This document shows, one piece after another, positions 4,376 to 40,615 of a stretch of 64,000 nt of DNA. The stretch covers positions 1,550,001-1,614,000 of the forward strand of contig CM034142.1 of the NCBI GenBank assembly GCA_019914995.1. The letters are read 5' to 3'. The DNA is from Acanthochlamys bracteata. Lineage: Eukaryota; Streptophyta; Magnoliopsida; Pandanales; Velloziaceae. The notes below the pieces were generated by a model, which saw only the letters and a list, made by a program, of their open reading frames with translations, searched no databases and was not told the DNA's origin. How positions within the stretch are numbered: position 1 is the stretch's first letter; every line of letters starts with the position of its first letter. A program made the translations under genes and the position numbers.

Positions 4376-12411
<8,036 letters not shown>

Positions 12412-14288
12412 GGCAGAGGCAACACAATAGAGAGTGGGAAGAGAAGGGAAGGAATTCAGTTGAAGGAATTAAGCGAAAGATTTTTCTCGTTTGTTGCTTT
12501 TGGGCGATAGAGATTAGAGAGATGATGAGTATGAGTTGATGGGATTAAGATGATAATGGATATTTTATTTTATTTTGTTGTTTAAAAAGTTTTAATAGTG
12601 CCATATTAGTTTAGAAAACTTTCTTTTTTTCTAGTTTGTTGTTTAAAAAACATTCTTCTCGTTTTTTTCACGCAGAAGTAATTTTTTAAATTTATTTTTT
12701 ATTAAAAAATAAAAAAGATTGTTTCTAATTCATTTTTTAATAATATAATACATTATTTTTAATAATATTATTTCTAGCAATTTATTTTTAAAAATTCATT
12801 TTAAAATGTTTCCTAAGAGATCTACGGAATAATGCCTTGAACAATATAAAAACTAATAACTTTCCAGGTTATTGGTTATTCCGGTCCTAATAACCTGGAA
12901 AGTTATTAGTTTTTATATTGTTCCTGTTTTTTTTTTCTAATGTCATGTTTATCTACTCTGATGATTATTTATTTATTTTTTTGTATTGCTAGTTCCAAAT
13001 TGATTTCGTTGCTGCCATATCTTTACACAAAAGTCTCTAACATTGATGTTATCCAAATATATTTTTAGTGAACTCAACAAATATTAAACCTACGTCATTC
13101 ATGGTAGTAAAAAAGATCTTGACTGCCAATTTAATAACATAAACTTTTTAACTCTCATTGCTTTGTTGTTTTATCAGAAACATAAGGAAGAGACGGATTA
13201 GTCGTTCTTATCCATAAGTTGTAGCTTCATTTCTTGGAGTGTTTTGAAAATGCTTACATAAAAAAAATTAATAAAATATATTTTAATAAAATTAATGCCA
13301 AATACAATTTTTGTCCTGGAAGCCGAAAACATGTTTTGAGTAAGTCTTTCGTTATAATAACCTATAGGAGTCTATGCGACAAAAAAGTAGAAATTTTAAG
13401 ACAAAAAAATATATAATTAAAACATTCTAAAAGACAGGAGTTATAAGACCAATTTAGAACATGTTTTAATTAACTAGTACTTAAAAAAATAAGTTCTGAC
13501 GAAAATAAATTAGTAAAAGTTATTTAAAATGAATTCAATAAATTTATTCACAGTGTACATTTGATGAACAACGGAAGTTGCTTATGTAAAATACGCAACT
13601 CTGATTATGGTTCCGATTACTTTCTTTGAAGAAACTCTTGGTGCCCTTATATTTGATAAAGTATATAAGAAATGTAACAAGCGATTCGCAGGTTTGATCA
13701 ACATAGAAACCATTGGAACCTGTACCTATAAGCGAATCACAGATTGCATACAACTGGGTTTTTTGAGGATGTTTGAAAATTATTATTGAAAAAAAAATAT
13801 TTTAAAAATAAGTTTTATTTTTTATTTCAAAAAATAATAAAAATAATTAATAAAAAATTTAACGAGTAAACTGTTTTTGTATTATTAAAAATTTTTTAAA
13901 AAATTTTATTAACAAACGTAAAATTAAAAAAAATTGAGACAACTGTTCACCTTGAAGGTCTTTTGTTGGCCTTTGTTTCCCTGAACCTAATCTTCCCTTT
14001 AATTTTCTAATTTCCATTTTAGTTTTCTTAGGGGCATGTCATCGAAATTATTTTAATTGCTTTAAATAAGTTTTCGTATCTGTGTTATTTCACCTAAGCT
14101 AATTTTTCAGGGAGATCTCATCTAAAGTTCCAAAGCTAGCTCTTGTTTGTTCCAACTTGTCGAGCGAAGAAGATCTAAAATTGAAAATGAAAATTGTCAG
14201 TGTTATTTAAATCAGTCTCCTGGAAGATAGTGGTAACCGTAATTTTAAAGGTTCAAATCATATAAGGTTCAAATTTTTAAAAGTAAGT
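12412..14288. other. Intergenic DNA upstream of the 14-3-3 gene
   Basis: The first 130 bases upstream of the 14-3-3 start are GC-richer and probably hold its 5' untranslated region and promoter on the minus strand. I did not assign a TATA box. The rest is AT-rich, with a MITE-like AT block near 13775-13930. Short open frames here show no family similarity. The palindrome at 12839 is listed separately. Confidence 0.4.
12839..12923. repeat. Perfect 35-bp inverted repeat with 15-base loop
   Basis: Bases 12839-12873 are the exact reverse complement of 12889-12923, separated by a 15-base spacer (12874-12888). There is no mismatch in 35 pairs, and the pairing stops abruptly on both sides. The arms themselves contain AATAAC and GTTATT words. 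A perfect AT-rich palindrome in otherwise neutral-looking DNA must be young or maintained. Confidence 0.95.
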
Positions 14289-14549: not shown

Positions 14550-15774
14550 TTAGATGCCTCTTGCACACAGAAAGACCTGTCTAACTTCTTCTAATGGTTC
14601 AACTTGTGCAATGTTAGCTACTTGGTTATGTATTATACTATTATGTGATATTCGTCCTTTATACATTGTATTACTAAGATTTAGGAAAAAAATAATTTCT
14701 TTTGACACCTTACAGATTATAAGAGGTGGATTTGAAGAATAAAGCTAATGAGGATTCAAGTTTTGCTCTAGATGAGCATAATAACAATGATGAAGAAACT
14801 AATGTCAACACATGGTTTGAGTGAAGCCCTAGTTGATGCACCTCAAGCTGGAATGGTTACTAACAAACTAAGGGCATGTTTGGCTAAGCTTTAAATTTAG
14901 AGCTTTTGAACGAAAGCTGCTGTTTATGTGCTTTTGCTAAAAAAAATGGCTGGTGAACTTTTGATTCGAAAGCTGCTTTTCTCTGAATTCTGTTTGGATA
15001 AATTTTACTGTTTAAAGTTTTTCTGTAAAAAAAATTATAGATATATTTGGCTAAGCTTGTACTTATAAATAAATAAAATATATAATGACTAAAATGTCCT
15101 TATGTATATAATAAAAAATAATTGTTAAATTTCTTAATCTATTTTCATGTATTATCTAATTTTTTAAAAATTAATTTTTAGAACATATTTTTAAAGTATT
15201 TTTTGTTTAATATTTTTTATATTAATATTTATAAACCTAAAAATAAATATATTATTATTATTATCATATATTATTATTTTGTAATAATATTTTAAATTAC
15301 TTTTAAATATATAAATATACTATTATTTAATATAATACTAAATAATAAAAATATATGTTAAAAAGATAATTGCATCTCTAGTTACTAAAATTATTTGTAC
15401 AAAAAGTTTAGATAGTATTAACATCTTCAATTCACTAGAAAATAATTCAATAATGTTGTTAACCACAATTCATTGAAATGTCCTTATATTGTAAAGCACA
15501 ATCCTTTGCAATATTTTTCAATACCAAAACTCCAGCATTCAGGTTGTGAAAAAAATCTCTAAATGCAAGCTTAACTAGAAGCTGATAACGGTAACGAGTA
15601 AAATAAGCAAGCTTTGCAGCAACATTGTTATCTATTATCAATAAACAATCATTTCAATTCAAGACTAAACTAAATCAAGCTATTATATTCGTGTATTGTA
15701 TCCCTCAAAATCAAATAATTTAGAGGTATTTGTTAGAGTGTAAGATCAAACATGTACAATATGATACAAATCAC

Positions 15775-16211
15775 GTTCTGCAGGAGGTAATTGTCTTTGG
15801 AATCTTTGGAATAGGTCCAGGGAATATAATATTCGTCCTAGCCAGATATGGTGCAAAGCTGTTTGCTTGCGGATTTGAAGCCATGTTCTTATTCATTATG
15901 TTGAAGATATCTATGAGGACAGCCACAAAAGAAGTCTCGATGTTGGTGGCAATCAGTGTTGATGTCTCAAGAAAGAAGAGTCCTTCCCTTTGAGCAAACT
16001 ATTTTGCGTCTTCAGTTGGGACAGCCCTCTAGTACTCGAGATCAGTCTTGTTGCCTACCAGCATTATAATAATATTCTTGTCTGCATGGCCACGAAGTTC
16101 CTCAAGCCAGCAAGAGATGTGGTCAAAGCTGTCGCGCTTGGATATGTCGTACACCAGCATTGTCCTAAGAGCCTCTCTGTAGTATGCACTGGTGACAGCC
16201 CTATACTTATA
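15775..16211 (-). pseudogene. RABA4/Rab11-like small GTPase fragment inside the Pack element
   Basis: Minus-strand translation from about 16211 reads [20 protein letters not shown], then [25 protein letters not shown] and ETSTLIATNIETSF. These are the switch-II flank, G4 (NKTD) and G5 (ETSA-like) blocks of plant RABA proteins, closest in feel to RABA4. A diverged hypervariable tail, including RTNIIFPGP, follows. Two in-frame stops interrupt it (after DLEY and after PTEDAK). The P-loop, switch I and the WDTAGQ motif are absent, so the piece cannot bind GTP. It shares orientation with the membrane-protein fragment upstream. Loss of function is certain; the donor paralogue is a guess. Confidence 0.85.
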
Positions 16212-16651
16212 AACACTTTAGCAATAAACATGAATATCTTTCAATGACTCAATATCATACAATGTTTAAAAGTTTCAAATAGAAACCTAATAGAAATTTA
16301 TCAATAGCAATCTGTCAAAGACAACCAAGCAGAAGCATTCCCATATGATTCAAAACAACATAGAAGAATCATCCTAGCAATTTCTGTTAACCCTAAAAGG
16401 AAAGAAAATGCTTCTACTTGACTGTTAAACCCCAAAAGAAAATGCTTCTGCTTGGCTGTCAAATACATAGCATTTTAACAAACCTGGATCTCTATAATTG
16501 CCAAACAGATACTTTTTTGGACGAGTATAATAAGCTTTGTATACTAAACTTAGCATACTTTATTTCTAAATGATCCTTATATCTGATTGATAACACAAAA
16601 ATTGACAAGCTACTAGTAATTACGAGTGGGAGAAATAATTTAAATAAAATG

Positions 16652-17050
16652 CTCACTTCAAGTCAAAGATTGTGTCTCCCCTTGCTTCAAGCAGTCCATC
16701 CATGACAGAGAAATAGGAGTGGAAGCATACGCACACCATTGTGCATACTCTTCTGACTGAGCTACAAGTACCATCCTAAAATCAATAAAAAGTAGCATGC
16801 ACATTACAAAACTAAAAGCACAGCAGAGGTAAAAAAAGATACACGTGAAGTGCTCACCTTGAAGCACCTTGACAATTTGTTTCCAGGAACTCCTTGGATG
16901 GACTCAAAAGTGGCAATGAGTGGCATTCCCACTCCAAATCCTATTCCAGCAAAGATTACTGTGACTGTTGCAAGAATTGGCCACAGTATGATTGGCAAAG
17001 ACATCAACAGCAATATGATGGACTTAAGAACTGATCCAAATTTCTCAGTT
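16652..17050 (-). pseudogene. At3g27390-like membrane protein, two captured exons
   Basis: Two minus-strand exons with an intron between them: 17050-16858 (acceptor CCAG, donor AAG|GTGAGC) and 16775 to about 16652 (acceptor TTTTAG). The first encodes a hydrophobic segment, ILLLMSLPIILWPILATVTV, then GIGFGVGMPLIATFESIQG and NKLSRCFK. The second encodes DGTCSSVRRV, CVCFHSYFSVMDGLLEARG and a stop after FDLK. The order and the CFHSYFSVMD motif match the plant-specific At3g27390 family of multi-pass membrane proteins of unknown function, as I recall it. Only a small internal part is present. Retention of the intron argues against a retrocopy. Confidence 0.75.
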
Positions 17051-17324
17051 CTGGCATTCCACCGATCACAAAATATGCAGTCAGTGTCAAGGTAATGTAA
17101 AACCAGAAAAAACTAAAAAGTTTGCAATAACAAGAAACACTACTGTGCCAATATCATTGCTAACACAAAATTGACAAATAGAAAACTACAGATAATGAAT
17201 CAAACAAATGCTAGACAAAGAAAACGAAATTAGAAGATCACAGCAAAGTAGATCAAGAACAAAAAAAAATCAGAAAATTTATTGAACGGAAAAAGAATTC
17301 GAATCAAACCAAGAAATCACGTAC

Positions 17325-17640
17325 CTGTATCTCCTTAGCACCGACGAAGGGTTGGAAGATCTCTGATGCACCTCGAACTAGTTGGAAGATTTGAGCGAGC
17401 AGAGATCAGCTGGAAGATGGTCGGCTTTGAAGGGTTGAGCGAACGGGAAAGTTGAATAGATGAGTGAATGAGCGAACGGCGGTGGATAACCCAGCAGAGA
17501 AGTGAATGGCGAGAACGACAGTGGGTGTGCTAGCAGAGAGGAGTGAATGGCGCTGGCGGTGGGTGCGGGTGCGAAGGGGGAGCCAATAAAGAGTATTGAG
17601 GAGAAAAGAGTGATCTGAGTGGGTGGGTAGGTGGGTGAGC
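17325..17640 (-). other. GC-rich exon-like leader of the Pack element
   Basis: A C- and CT-rich minus-strand stretch, clearly unlike the AT-rich surroundings. It ends in a strong donor site, ATACAG|GTACGT at 17325. It resembles a 5' untranslated exon and core-promoter side of a plant gene. It lies upstream, in transcript direction, of the membrane-protein exons, so it could drive a chimeric transcript of the captured pieces. No protein similarity was seen. Confidence 0.45.
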
Positions 17641-17876
17641 ATATTTATTCAATGTAATTTATCAAACTTATCAGGGATAGAAGAGTCATTTCAAATTATA
17701 AATCACGAAATGCTCCGTGCTGCTTATTTAAGAAGCATCAATCTGATGCTTTTCTTTTTTTTAAGAAGTAAGCTGCTTATTTTTAAGAGAAGCCGTCGTT
17801 GCCAAACGTTCAAATTACTGTTAAGTACTTTTTTCTGGCTAAAAGCCAAAAAAAAGCACTCCCAAATATGGCCTAA

Positions 17877-26928: not shown

Positions 26929-28431
26929 TCAAAATGGAAGAACAACATTGTCAAGAAGTTCCAATGTTAACTTCAGCTTTCTCTCTCTGGAAACAGATTC
27001 AACCAACCGAGTCCATGAACCAAACTCGGGCATAAAACCCATCTCAGCCAACCCATACAATGCTACAGTTGCATCAGCCACTCTTCCACAGTTGCACAAG
27101 CTAACTAACAGCTTATTTGAAGCAGCATAATGAGGCACAAGCCCTCTTCCCAACATTAATCCCAACAATCCTACAGCCTTGTCTACATGTTTACCATCCA
27201 ATAACCGATTCATGACAATCCTATAGCTAGCAACATTAAGTCGAACACCTTCAAAGGGCAAGTTTTCTAGCATGGCCATCACTTCACTAAACCTCTCTTC
27301 CCTGCACATCCCCTCAATCACCACATTATATGTCACTGTGTCCACTTTGCATCCCCTCTCCTTCATCTCTTTGACCAATTCAATCCCATCATCAACCCTT
27401 CCGGTTCGACAAAAACAACTTATTAGTGTTGTATACGCCACAGTATCTGGTTCATAACCTGCTCTTTGCATTTCATCAAACACCTGTTGTGCCTCCTCCA
27501 ATCTTCCTTCTCTGCAGAAACCGCCCATCAGCGTCGAGTAATTAATTGCATTAGGCTCACAACCATTCTTCAGCATAAATTCAAATATTGCTTTTGCCTT
27601 CTCCACTTTCCTATTCCTACAGAAACCATCTATCAAGACATTATAAGTCAGTGCGTCCGGCACAATCCCATCCTTCCCAATCATATCCTCAAACATGTTA
27701 AACGCATCTTTAAGTCGCCCCGTCTGGCAAAGCCCAGAGATAATTGTTGAATAAGTAATTAAATTAGGTGCGAAGTTCTTAGATGATCGCCTCTGCCGCA
27801 TAGTTTCAAGAATTCTAAACGCAGAATCAATATCCCCACCATTACAACAGCAATAGTACTTGATAACAATGTTGTAGATGCATGTATTCAATTCAATGTG
27901 AATACTGTTTTCCGCGTAGTCAAGCAGCTCTTCAGCAAGATCAAACCGGTTAGAATCAATCAGTAAATTCAAACAAATCGAAAGAGCTTTGACCGAAGGT
28001 TTACTACGAGTAATCGGAAGAATTAAACAAAACAAATTGAGAACTTCATCATAAAGTTTCGATCTTGAGTATAATGGAACGAGAGAAAGAATCAAAGATT
28101 CATGAAACTTTACAGGGTATTGAGAAGCAAGATTGAGAACAGAAGAGACTGCAGGAAACAGACGTGAACGAGCGAGGCGGAGAAGTAGAGCCGAGAAAGT
28201 TGAATTGGAGTGATTGAATCCATTCTGCTCTGCTGCTGAGTTGAAGATGTCGAGAGCACGTTGTGGGGAGCGTGATTGAGAGATTAAACGAGCACAATCT
28301 GCGTGAGAAAGGAATCGTGAAGGTGGAGGAGGAGGTGATGGTAGCGGCGGCTGCGGTGGAGGGGAAGGGGAGGGTTTAGGGTTTAGGTAGTGGAGAGGTG
28401 AGATCCACGGAATTTGTTGATGTTTCTTCAT
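26929..28431 (-). CDS. P-class pentatricopeptide repeat protein
   Basis: An intronless minus-strand gene of 500 residues starting at ATG 28431. PPR proteins bind RNA one base per repeat and act in mitochondrial or plastid RNA maturation. After a basic, proline-rich N-terminus (PSPSPPPQPPLPSPPPPPS, residues about 20-38), which may include a targeting signal, helical repeats run to near the end. The clearest 35-residue units begin NLITYSTIISGLCQTGRLKD, DALTYNVLIDGFCRNRKVEK, NAINYSTLMGGFCREGRLEE, DTVAYTTLISCFCRTGRVDD and DTVTYNVVIEGMCREERFSE, all canonical P-type. No E, DYW or SMR domain follows. The N-terminus WISPLHYLNPK recalls the Arabidopsis protein At5g18475, but I hold that loosely. A duplicated 3' end lies immediately downstream. 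The gene looks intact. Confidence 0.93.
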   Translation of the reverse strand: MKKHQQIPWISPLHYLNPKPSPSPPPQPPLPSPPPPPSRFLSHADCARLISQSRSPQRALDIFNSAAEQNGFNHSNSTFSALLLRLARSRLFPAVSSVLNLASQYPVKFHESLILSLVPLYSRSKLYDEVLNLFCLILPITRSKPSVKALSICLNLLIDSNRFDLAEELLDYAENSIHIELNTCIYNIVIKYYCCCNGGDIDSAFRILETMRQRRSSKNFAPNLITYSTIISGLCQTGRLKDAFNMFEDMIGKDGIVPDALTYNVLIDGFCRNRKVEKAKAIFEFMLKNGCEPNAINYSTLMGGFCREGRLEEAQQVFDEMQRAGYEPDTVAYTTLISCFCRTGRVDDGIELVKEMKERGCKVDTVTYNVVIEGMCREERFSEVMAMLENLPFEGVRLNVASYRIVMNRLLDGKHVDKAVGLLGLMLGRGLVPHYAASNKLLVSLCNCGRVADATVALYGLAEMGFMPEFGSWTRLVESVSRERKLKLTLELLDNVVLPF

Positions 28432-29146
28432 TGAAGAAGAACTGTGGGCAGCGACGCAGCAGAGAGGTGTTGGAGATTTGGCAACTTTTTCTTTTTTTTT
28501 AGTTTAAGAAAACTGGCAACATTTGGTCCATCAAAAATTTTAAGTTTGCAAACGTTGACCTTATGAATTGTTTTTTACAATTATTATTATTATTTTGCTC
28601 TTCCGTGCAAGAGAGAAATACTATAATAGAATAAGCAAAAATTAAAAAAGGTAAACATAAACTACTTAAAATATTATGCTTGAAATCTACTAAGCAAACA
28701 AGCACATAAAAATAATTAATCCCAAGAGGACAAAGCACTAGAACAACAAACTCATACACGAATAATCAAAATTTATACAACTTCTACGTTAACAAACTCA
28801 TACACGATAATCAATCTCATCTAATGTACACCCATTCAACATCAACAAGAAAATCAAAATTCATTAAAACCAAATCCACAAAGCAAAATCCCAACAACAA
28901 AAATCTCCAACCACTAGGTTAACAAGATATAAACTAAGCTAACAGAAAATCAAGATTGTCATGATCGAACTTTTAGATAGAATTGTTCCGCCTGAATAAA
29001 ATCATAAAATTAGAAGAGTATTATAAGATATAAGATTTTAAATATCGATAATTTTTTAATAAAATATTATTTTAATACTTTTAAATTTTAGATAATATTT
29101 TTTAATATTGTAACAAACTAACAGATGTTGATTTTTGTAGTTTCAG
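28432..29146. other. Intergenic DNA upstream of the PPR gene
   Basis: The first 60-70 bases upstream of the PPR start are GC-richer and probably hold its leader on the minus strand. The rest is AT-rich without recognisable coding or repeat structure, apart from the 12-base word AACAAACTCATA repeated near 28745 and 28793. Confidence 0.4.
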
Positions 29147-36402: not shown

Positions 36403-39400
36403 TTGATGATGCCTTCGTCTAAGTTCTTTCAGGACTTTCTACCGACATCCACAGATTTTTCTTTGAGTACTGCTGATGATTGGGCTGAATGGGCTGCTTC
36501 AGTTAGAACTATTCTTCGTGGACGTCGTCTTCTTGGGCATCTTGATGGCTCTATTCAGCGTCCTCTCTCACCACTAGATGATGCTTTTATTGAGGTAAAG
36601 AATAACATTCGTATTGCGTAGGACATTTGGGATGATCATGATAAACGAATTCTTGCATTTATCAATGTATCTGTTAATCGATCTCTTCGACCACATCTTG
36701 ACTGCTGCATTATTATGAGAGTCTTTGACTACTCAGTTTGTTCAATCAAGTGGTGCTAGAGAGTATCAAATTCTCACCAAGGCTTGGGCCGCCAGACAAG
36801 GTGATCGCACTATCCAGGAGTTCGCTACATTGATGTGAGGTTACTAGCGCGAGCTCTTAAAGCTTGAAGGTCATGGCTGTGCCTGCCATGAACGTTGTAT
36901 CTGTCGTGAACGACGTCAACTTTATCAGTTTCTTATGGCTTTGCGTTCAGAATTTCAAGCAGTGATTGGTCGTATCATACAAAATAACACCAGTCTAGAT
37001 GCTGCAATTTCTGAGCTCATTACCAAGGAGACTCGCTTATGGTCTCTTTCGATGATGGTACCCACATTGACTACTGATTCAGCTACAGTATTTGCTGCAT
37101 CTTCACGCACTTCACCTTCTACTTCGGGAGACACTGGTGCTCATTCTCGCAGGAATTCTTCCCATTCTCGTCAGCAATCATTCTGTACTCATTGCAAGAA
37201 ATCGGGTCATACTGTAGATCGTTGTTTTCAGCTTCAGCCACATTTACTTACTCAGTATTGGGAGTGGAAGAAGGCGAAAGATTTTTCCACTATTCGTCTT
37301 CCAATTGCACAGGCAAATGTTGTTGATGCTGTTCCTATCTCTCAGTCTATCAACAATGACTCAACGAATATTCACCATCGTCTTACTCAGATAGAACTTC
37401 AGCTTCAGCGACGATCCATTTTTGCTGGTTCATCTACCTCTGCTTCTTCCGCCGCTCCTGGTATGTCATCCTCTAGGATTTTAGATTCTGGTGCATCTCA
37501 TCATATGACTTCTGATCTATCATTGTTATATGACATGACATCTTTACCACCAAACTCTCCATTTTTATATACTGCTGCTGATGGCTCTCAACTAACCATC
37601 ACTCAGTCTGGCTCCGTAATCTCTGACTCTCTCAGTCTACCTTTTGTTTTACATGTTCATCATCTCACCCTATACCTAATCTCAGTCAGTTCTCTTTGTG
37701 AAAGCGGGCTTATTGTTGTCTTTGATTTCCTTAGCTGTTCTGTGCAGGATTCTCGTACCGGCCAGACGATTGGTCGTACTCGTACAAAGGAGCGACTGTA
37801 TCACTTGGAGTATCTCCATCTTTTTTTTTCAACTACTTCAAATCTTAGTTGTGCTGCTGTTGTTGCGTCTGCTGCTGATTTGTGGCACAGACGTTTAGGT
37901 CATATTTCTGAATCTCGTTTAAAGAGTCTCACTGATAGTTGAGCTCTTTGGCGAGTTTGTTTTTCTCCTTTATCTTCATGTACTAGCTGTAAGTTGGCAA
38001 AACATTTAGCTTTACCTTTTCATCAAAGTTTATCTAAAACTTCTCATTCTTTTGATCTAGTTCATTCTGATATTTGGGGATCAGCTCTAATTCCATCTAT
38101 GACTGGTTTTGTTTACTATGTGAGTTTCATTGATGACTATACTCGTTACATTTGGGTTTATCTTATCCGTCATCGTTCTAAAGTTTCTACTATATATAAC
38201 ACTTTTAGCACTATGGTTCATACTCAGTTTAATACTCGAATTAAGATTTTTCGTTCTGATGGTGCTCGTGAATATACATCTTCTACTATGAGATCCATCT
38301 TACAGTCTCATGACACTCTTTTTCAACAATCTTGTCCTTATACACCTGAACAGAATGGAGTAGCGGTATGTAAGCATCGTCATATTTTTGAAACTGCTCG
38401 CTCTCTCTTGCTCTCCTCTTCAGTTCCTCAAATCTTTTGGGCAGAAGCTATTCTTACCTCTGTTAATCTTATCAATATTACTCCGTCATCTGCTTTGTCT
38501 GGCAAGACACCTCATTAGAGTTTATTTTTATCTCCTCCAGACTATAGTATGATCCGCACTTTTTGGTGCACTTGTTTTCTTCTACTTCGTCCGACTGAGC
38601 GAACAAATTTGACTGCTCGATTAGTCAAGTGTATCTTGCTTGGCATTAGTTCAGAACATAAGGGGTATCGATGTTATGATCCCACAGCACGCCGACTTCG
38701 CATTTCTCATCATGTCACTTTTCTTGAGGATGTTCCTTATTTTTCCTCTTCACTTCCTGATGTTCAATTTCTAACACCATCATATTATCTTTCATCCAGT
38801 TCATCTGACTCTTCTCACATATCTATAGATCCTACTTCATTACTTCCCTCTATTGATACTGTCCCTTCTTCGACGACACCAACACTAGCTAACGAGGATC
38901 CTCCCCATTCTTCTCCAATTTCACCAGTATCTAATTTATCTATATCTCCACCGCCATTTATTCGTCAGTCACAATGTCCTCATCGTCCTCCTACTCGTTT
39001 TACACCAGATTGTTCAGGCTCGCCTGATAGGTTTGATTTTGCCACCCTCACCTCCTACTCTCCACAGTTTCATTCATTTCTTACTGCTATTCATAGAACT
39101 CATGAGCCTAATTCTTAACAAGAGGCAATTCAGTACTATGAGTGGCGAGAGGCAATAGCAGAGGAGTTTCATGCATTTCAGCAGACAGATACTTGGGATA
39201 TAGTTCTATTACCGGAGAGAGTACAGCCTATCAGTTGCAAATGAGTTTTTTAAGGTTAAATATCGACCTGATGGCTCCATTGAGAGGCATAAGGCTTGTC
39301 TTGTTGCTAGAGGCTTTACTCAGGAGTATGGAATTAATTATGATGAGACATTTGCTCCTGTTGTCTAGATAGCTACTGTTCGTACTCTATTAGCAGTCGC

Positions 39401-40615
39401 TGCTATACGTCAGTGGCCTCTTTATTAGATGGATGTGAAGAATGCTTTTCTTCATGGTACATTATCGGAGGTTGTTTATATGCAGCCACCTCCATGTCTT
39501 TCTACTCCTTCGGGTCATGTATGTCGTCTTCGTCGTGCTATTTATGGACTCAAACAGGCTCCTAGAGCTTGGTTTGAGTGTTTTCGTCGAGCTATTATAG
39601 AGGCAGAATTTCAGCAGAGTTCTCAAGATCACTCCTTATTTGTGCGGTCCTCACCGCAAGGGCGGGTACTCCTGTTATTATATGTAGATGATATGATTTT
39701 AACAGGGGATGATATTGCAGGTATTGCAGTCACTAAAAAGCACTTACGTCAACAGTTTCAGATGAAGGACCTTGGATATCTACGCTATTTTCTTAGATTG
39801 GAGATTGCGCAGAGTGCTAGAGGAATTCTTATTTCTCAACAAAAATATACTTCTAACATTATTCAATCGCAGGCTTATCTGATAGTCGGACGGTTGATAC
39901 CCTTTTAGAGCTTCATGTGAAACTTCATCCTACAGATGGTAAGCCTCTCACAGATCCTACTCGGTATAGACGGCTTGTCGGTCAGCTTGTCTATCTTTGT
40001 ATGACTAGACCAGACATTTTTCATGCAGTAAGTGTCATCAGTCAATTTGTTTCTGCACCGCGATCAGCACATTATAGTGCTTTATTCAGAATTCTCAGAT
40101 ATCTTCAAGGCGCTATTACTCGCTCTTTGTTTATGTCTTCCACATCTACTTTGGAGTTTCGAGCTTTTAGTGATGCAGATTGGACTGGTGATCCAACCAC
40201 TAGACGTTCTACTACAGGTTTCTACTTATTCATTGGTGATTCATTGATTTCGTGACGCAGTAAGAAACAGGATATCGTTACTTGTTCTTCAACAGAAGCC
40301 GAGTATCGAGCTATGACTGCTACCACAAGGGAGATTATTCATGTGTGAAGATTACTTACTGATATGGGGGTTACTTTTACAAAAGCTACTCCTCTTTACT
40401 ATGACAATCGAAGTGCTATTCAGATTGCAAGCAATCCAGTTTTTCATGAACGAACGAAACATATTGAGATTAACTGTTACTTCGTTCGTAAGCATTTTCT
40501 GTCAGGTATTATTTCTTTACCACATGTTATTTCTACTGATCAACTGACAGATTTTTTTATAAAATCGCATCCAATATCGAAATTTCAAACATTATTGTTG
40601 TTTGACCCATCATAA
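36403..40615 (+). pseudogene. Copia gag-pol, interrupted by stops and frameshifts
   Basis: The frame starts MMMPSSKFFQDFLPTSTDFS (gag). It is followed by a CCHC zinc knuckle (CTHCKKSGHTVDRC, 37184-37225), the protease motif LDSGASHHMTSD near 37480, the integrase entry DLWHRRLGHISESRLKSL near 37880, and the integrase core (FDLVHSDIWG, YVSFIDDYTRYIWVY, PYTPEQNGVA). Reverse transcriptase shows MDVKNAFLHGTLSEV, YGLKQAPRAWFE and LLLYVDDMILTGDD. RNase H shows DADWTGDPTTRRSTTGFY and EAEYRAMTA. In-frame stops fall at 36619, 37940, 38516, 39366, 39426, 40253 and 40346, with frameshifts between some blocks. Two stops replace near-invariant residues: Q of QMDVKNAF at 39426 and W of SWxSKKQ at 40253. Confidence 0.92.

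Follow-up and report, generated by a model that had tools for sequence, protein, structure and literature searches.

The element and its surroundings

The window analysed here, a stretch of 64,000 nucleotides (C17:1550001-1614000), contains an element of 3002 bases at positions 14872-17873, called W below. Its termini are sharply defined: GGGCATGTTTGG starts exactly at 14872 and CCAAATATGGCC ends exactly at 17873, the two ends are identical at 10 of 14 positions across their first 14 bases, and TAA stands at 14869-14871 and again at 17874-17876. The inverted termini flanked by TAA that the original prediction had proposed are confirmed, and target-site duplications (TSDs) recur in related elements. 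Nearly all 3 kb of W can be assigned to element backbone, a RABA4 piece, filler and an At3g27390-like piece, with no transposase gene among them. Table 1 lists these features. Elsewhere in the window, reading frames resembling gag, integrase and reverse transcriptase occur in pieces at 36848-40255, which we take from their translations to be a Copia-type LTR retrotransposon. The minus-strand frames at 11908-12468 and 26929-28503 presumably encode a 14-3-3 protein and a PPR protein, respectively, both again named from their translations.

Table 1. Features of element W and its flanks (positions in the window; a slash marks the splice site)
Feature	Position	Strand	Remarks
Left target-site duplication TAA	14869-14871	.	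read in sequence
Left terminal inverted repeat GGGCATGTTTGG	14872-14883	+	similar ends in other copies
Left (3') backbone	14872-15348	.	common to many elements of the genome including the C18 coding relative (at least 40 scored of 680 candidates)
Left internal backbone	15349-15654	.	near-whole or whole only at the 11 RABA4-carrying loci; its halves occur separately at other loci
Captured RABA4 piece	15654-16249	-	3' UTR, exon 2 and about 30 bases of intron 1
76-bp filler	16236-16311	.	96-97% identical to C7 and C14 stretches, 92% to a C5 stretch
Second filler	16312-16463	.	rearranged 117- and 29-bp pieces of dispersed sequence (C1:1634149, C12:3831628 and others)
Captured At3g27390-like piece	16459-17162	-	end of intron 2, exon 3, intron 3, exon 4, start of intron 4
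Captured exon 4	16657-16775	-	12 bases (4 codons) shorter than in the parent; acceptor and donor kept
Captured exon 3	16858-17050	-	acceptor and donor kept
Right module	17165-17873	-	element's own 5' side with GC-rich exon; L021-like lineage, unlike the right half of C13A
Native splice donor G/GTACGT	17319-17325	-	GT kept in 10 of 11 aligned right ends
Right terminal inverted repeat GGCCATATTTGG (minus-strand reading)	17862-17873	-
Right target-site duplication TAA	17874-17876	.

Copies of W in the genome

The genome searched comprised 195.5 Mb in 557 contigs, and all locus counts given here derive from scored candidates and are lower bounds. Other copies sharing the termini of W, whose existence had been left as a question by the original prediction, were recovered with the left end, the right end and the whole element as query. 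The left 829 bases are found at at least 40 loci (40 scored of 680 candidates), at 10 of which, W included, the match is near full length, and the right 709 bases have partial matches at at least 40 loci (40 scored of 153 candidates). Using all of W, a single other full-length copy was seen among the 40 scored of 858 candidates, at C16:6930167-6933161. This copy is 98% identical to W overall and has the same two-gene cargo, with TAT as its own TSD. The same gene pieces next to a separate TSD show that the element has moved along with its cargo.

From base 301 onward W and the C16 copy differ by 15 mismatches in about 2,700 aligned bases (0.6%), so that the spread of the two-gene form is recent by comparison with that of the RABA4 family overall. 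Over the initial 300 bases or so (window 14872-15171; L010 from 1501 on) the difference rises to about 17%, which would fit an exchange of one of the two left ends. The 25 other left ends compared included no nearer donor for the C16 end than W itself, the best match at 83%.

Membership of the PIF/Harbinger superfamily

A 3-bp TSD is exact in 11 of the 14 elements that were read at both ends; that of C2b matches only after a 1-base shift of the start, and those of C13A and the C3 pair do not agree. The exact duplications are TAA or TTA in six elements, ATA in three, TAT in one and AGA in one. At random places in the window two 3-mers match with a chance of 0.022, giving 11 of 14 a p of about 2e-16, a value with slight freedom in it, as the element ends were placed by motif.

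Left and right ends form same-direction pairs in the genome, five of them 6-8 kb apart. One of the five, at C18:1299896-1307041 with the TSD ATA (locus L065, also labelled AUT), is a coding relative of W with matches to Myb_DNA-bind_3 (Myb/SANT-like, 1.4e-22) and to a piece of transposase, DDE_Tnp_4 (2.2e-13). Both are read from the right end towards the left end, the direction in which the cargo of W also runs. The domain content is that of this one relative, the other four pairs having been read at their ends. A PIF element with termini matching those of W does therefore exist, as a coding relative; the autonomy looked for in it is qualified by a transposase reading that is broken over several frames or exons. 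Taken together, the 3-bp TSDs, the shared ends and a relative with DDE_Tnp_4 and Myb/SANT-like domains uphold the placement of W in the PIF/Harbinger superfamily.

The left backbone of W is 85% identical to that of the coding relative, and the short terminal inverted repeats are common to both. Since similarity between the two is confined to their ends, the coding region is gone from W. We class W among the non-autonomous PIF/Harbinger elements with host gene pieces inside (Pack-TYPE, Pack-PIF).

Searches for empty sites returned none for W in its own genome with 400-base flanks (40 scored of 832 candidates) and none for C16, C19, C2a and C15 with 60-base flanks (40 scored of 45 candidates); in the latter search the best overhang across the junction was 14 bases, inside a repeat that starts at the C19 site. 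At C13:4816435-4824996 (L066 536-9097), a RABA4-carrying element A has an element B in its right end, with TTA on both sides.

The RABA4 piece and its spread

The fragment of a RABA4-like GTPase that had been recognised in W could be traced to a parent. It is 87% identical to C17:1082315-1082909, its protein match (15774-16208) is interrupted by two TAG stops, and a Ras family match lies within 16029-16217. The parental gene, from C17:1082428 to about 1085.9 kb, has exon 1, a 2.8-kb intron and exon 2, lacks stops, looks complete and matches the Ras family at 8.6e-62. A broken RABA4-like copy with exons 1 and 2 and frameshifts is present at C9:7174988-7175540 (L047), where no match to the element ends was found within 1.5 kb on either side.

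The 3' end of RABA4 is carried, together with a left half of the W type, at 11 loci, 8 of which were read at both ends. All 31 of 31 candidates scored for the left internal backbone correspond to these 11 loci plus 20 partial matches of 77-85%. A reading of this stretch as a further captured gene was rejected, there being no single-copy parent among the 31. We compared 26 fetched left ends, of about 40 scored, in a tree from which L036 was removed as the same locus as AUT, and the left ends of eight RABA4 elements formed one clade (support 99/95). The more divergent RABA4 loci L017, L018 and L020 (C4, C9b and C18) are not part of this clade; a larger, weakly supported group (58/85) places them beside two left ends for which no RABA4 piece is known. 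One capture for all 11 loci is for this reason likely but not proven.

The copy at C9a has exon 2 together with about 1.25 kb of intron sequence, whose matches are distributed across some 1.9 kb of the parental intron 1, and we take it to be nearest to the first captured state. In W, some 30 bases of the RABA4 intron are followed by the 76-base filler piece and then by the 117- and 29-base pieces.

The At3g27390-like piece

The second piece is 95% identical to C1:13599261-13599979, itself part of a longer gene, in agreement with the predicted pair of minus-strand exons with their intron retained. We take the gene to be At3g27390-like, although Pfam has no model for the piece; the exon numbers are assigned by eye. 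Among the matches scored (40 of 75 candidates) the piece is seen only in W, in the C16 copy and in the C1 parent. Seven nonsynonymous and three synonymous codon changes separate it from the parent over 103 codons, where 75% nonsynonymous would be expected at random, and there is thus no sign of constraint on this piece.

The right module and its predicted transcript

A GC-rich exon with a strong splice donor was the remaining part of the original prediction. The donor is real (ATACAG/GTACGTG at 17325/17324), and the one exception to its GT among the 11 aligned right ends is the coding relative L065, which has AT. The exon itself is the element's own sequence, because the right module matches at at least 40 scored loci; a third captured gene at this place was rejected in view of the 40 scored right-end loci of 153 and of the match at the right end of L065.

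Both captured pieces lie on the minus strand, sharing the orientation that had been predicted, and both read the same way as the native 5' exon. When splicing was predicted, with three RABA4 acceptors tried, the resulting RNA had no in-frame ATG in the native exon and entered RABA4 out of frame. On these predictions a chimeric RNA from W is possible, but one protein made of both gene parts is, in view of the fused frame, not likely.

Two halves of different lineage

Between W and C13A the left halves diverge by 5.1% and the right halves by 22.3%, whereas in three control pairs of the same lineage left and right diverge alike (0.4/0.8, 1.5/1.6 and 4.4/5.5%). In a tree of 11 right halves of about 700 bases, W and the C16 copy group with L021 (C7, about 4.713-4.72 Mb; support 99/99) and C13A groups with L063 (98/98), and forcing W, C16 and C13A together was rejected (AU p=0.0002). 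From the RABA4 family this tree contains W, C16 and C13A only, as C19, C2a, C15, C2b and C9a are without the region; L060, which is C13A again, was omitted. Over the last 162 bases, compared among 13 right ends, a single origin of the eight RABA4 right ends was not rejected (AU p=0.264), and a single origin of the right ends of W, C16, C2a and C15 gave AU p=0.07. For this shorter tree L061 was removed (the same as C13B), L021, L058 and L064 were dropped for short coverage and C9a was added by hand. On the 700-base right halves W and C16, set against C13A, are shown to be hybrids, the left half belonging to the RABA4 lineage and the right half to another. The second gene piece fills the exact gap between the two halves of W, and the seam has a 5-bp common word, TCAAA, on its left and none that is clear on its right.

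Other members of the family may likewise have changed partners. C19/C2b (L067 1205-2611) and C2a/C15 (L068 172-1395) leave the shared RABA4 half at different break points. Their right parts match still other loci (C5:5168572 at 89% for C19/C2b, C18:3447264 at 92% for C2a/C15), which indicates about four right-half lineages on one left half, with at least two shown. Further right-half relatives lie at C19:4076851 and C1:7379870. Inner stretches of C19 and C2a match other dispersed loci (40 scored of 159 and 40 scored of 79 candidates, respectively), and these two elements may contain further cargo.

Assembly of W

We consider it probable that W was built stepwise, by RABA4 capture, intron loss with gain of filler, a hybrid join with the second gene, and spread. 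In the first step an ancestral element would have taken up the 3' end of RABA4 (3' UTR, exon 2 and some of intron 1), in sense to its own 5' exon, and then spread; one capture event accounts most simply for the 11 loci and the parent. The captured intron would then have been mostly lost and short filler pieces inserted, a step suggested by C9a, which still holds about 1.25 kb of the RABA4 intron. In a third step the left half of a RABA4 element would have become linked to a right half from the other lineage, with exons 3 and 4 of the At3g27390-like gene between them. The hybrid would finally have reached at least two sites, one on C17 and one on C16, presumably by means of the transposase of relatives like the one on C18. 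The difference of about 17% between W and C16 in their first 300 bases is left unexplained by this history.

For the third step, fusion of two neighbouring insertions seems somewhat the better account. The model put forward for Pack-CACTA and Pack-TYPE elements has a pair of adjacent insertions, each deprived of its inner end, transpose as a single unit together with the intervening DNA (PMC8903248, PMC13317346). Two different parent elements with host DNA between them, as found in W, is what this model predicts. The halves could instead have been brought together by template switching during repair of an excision gap, with the copying strand leaving a RABA4 element for the At3g27390-like gene and then that gene for an L021-like element, a course for which no neighbouring insertions are needed. 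A seam with only a 5-bp word on the left and none that is clear on the right also fits such jumps; the left-hand word and the rearranged filler speak for them, as does the 9 kb around the C1 parent, which, weak AT-rich matches aside, matches W only at the captured piece. Against this, template switching allows flanking halves of different lineages but does not itself predict them, and the right seam has no clear common word. We regard this route as possible, with a chance of perhaps one in three.

A separate matter is whether the cargo has a use. It could in principle be expressed as a chimeric transcript from the element's promoter, with a coding or regulatory role, and the common orientation of the pieces, the native donor GT retained in all but one of the aligned right ends and the captured donors and acceptors that are still in place would all suit such a transcript. 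The long frame, however, has no ATG in the native exon and runs out of frame into RABA4, the RABA4 part has two stops, and the codon changes in the second piece are nonsynonymous at about the random rate (7 of 10 against 75%). We therefore find this unlikely; a coding role is not supported, and most likely the cargo is carried along passively while it decays.

A segmental duplication, in which two adjacent host genes would have been copied along with a nearby element, has nothing found in its favour and is so improbable that we set it aside, since the parents, now located as the original prediction had asked, are far apart on different contigs (RABA4 at C17:1.08 Mb, the At3g27390-like gene at C1:13.6 Mb) and not adjacent, and since the 3-kb unit as a whole is bounded by definite ends and a TSD and recurs in a second copy beside a TSD of its own.

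Relation to known systems

The original prediction had held that gene capture is much less often described for PIF/Harbinger than for Pack-MULEs, Helitrons and CACTA elements; to be set beside this, cases have been published from 2008 onwards for grapevine, C. elegans, maize and rice. In 2008 capture of exons and introns was reported for the PIF element Pifvine-3 of grapevine (PMC2528002), and a Harbinger element of C. elegans with two captured coding sequences was reported in the same year (PMC2572040). Pack-PIF elements of maize and rice followed in 2022, among them maize cluster 18 with two successive captures, 163 bp being present in 72 elements and 58 bp more in 4 of them (PMC8903248).

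The maize and rice Pack-PIF elements are like W in being non-autonomous, in their 3-bp TSD and captured gene pieces and in the fusion of neighbouring insertions that was proposed for them (PMC8903248). Compared with them, W differs in its larger pieces (about 0.6 and 0.7 kb), one of them with an intron between two exons, in having both pieces in sense to its own 5' exon, in having both parents located, and in its halves of different lineages (PMC8903248). Pifvine-3 shares with W the presence of host exons and introns in a PIF element, in some cases common to several copies, but carries long extra 5' regions beside ORF1 and transposase, whereas the coding region of W is gone (PMC2528002). Turmoil-1, the Harbinger element of C. 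elegans, likewise has pieces of two unrelated genes, in its case within the long inverted repeats of a transposase-bearing element (PMC2572040). Hybrids of Arabidopsis Pack-CACTA elements resemble W in consisting of two neighbours with host DNA between them, in another superfamily, according to the account of them given in a review (PMC13317346). Capture by PIF/Harbinger elements is itself known; what is new here is a hybrid element whose parent genes are located and which has a second gene piece at its seam.

There is still debate on how cut-and-paste elements come to incorporate host genes, and a 2026 review describes the fusion of neighbours while allowing for a mechanism yet to be discovered (PMC13317346). 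The genome studied here offers within itself a series from a long RABA4 intron piece through a trimmed intron to a hybrid with a second gene at its seam. We suggest, tentatively and at slightly less than even chance, that one RABA4 left half has been joined to at least four different right halves, so that swapping of right halves between neighbouring PIF elements is a standing process here, of which gene capture would be a by-product whenever host DNA lies between the partners. Because both parents have been located, every base of the seam can be compared with its source, which opens the model to testing.
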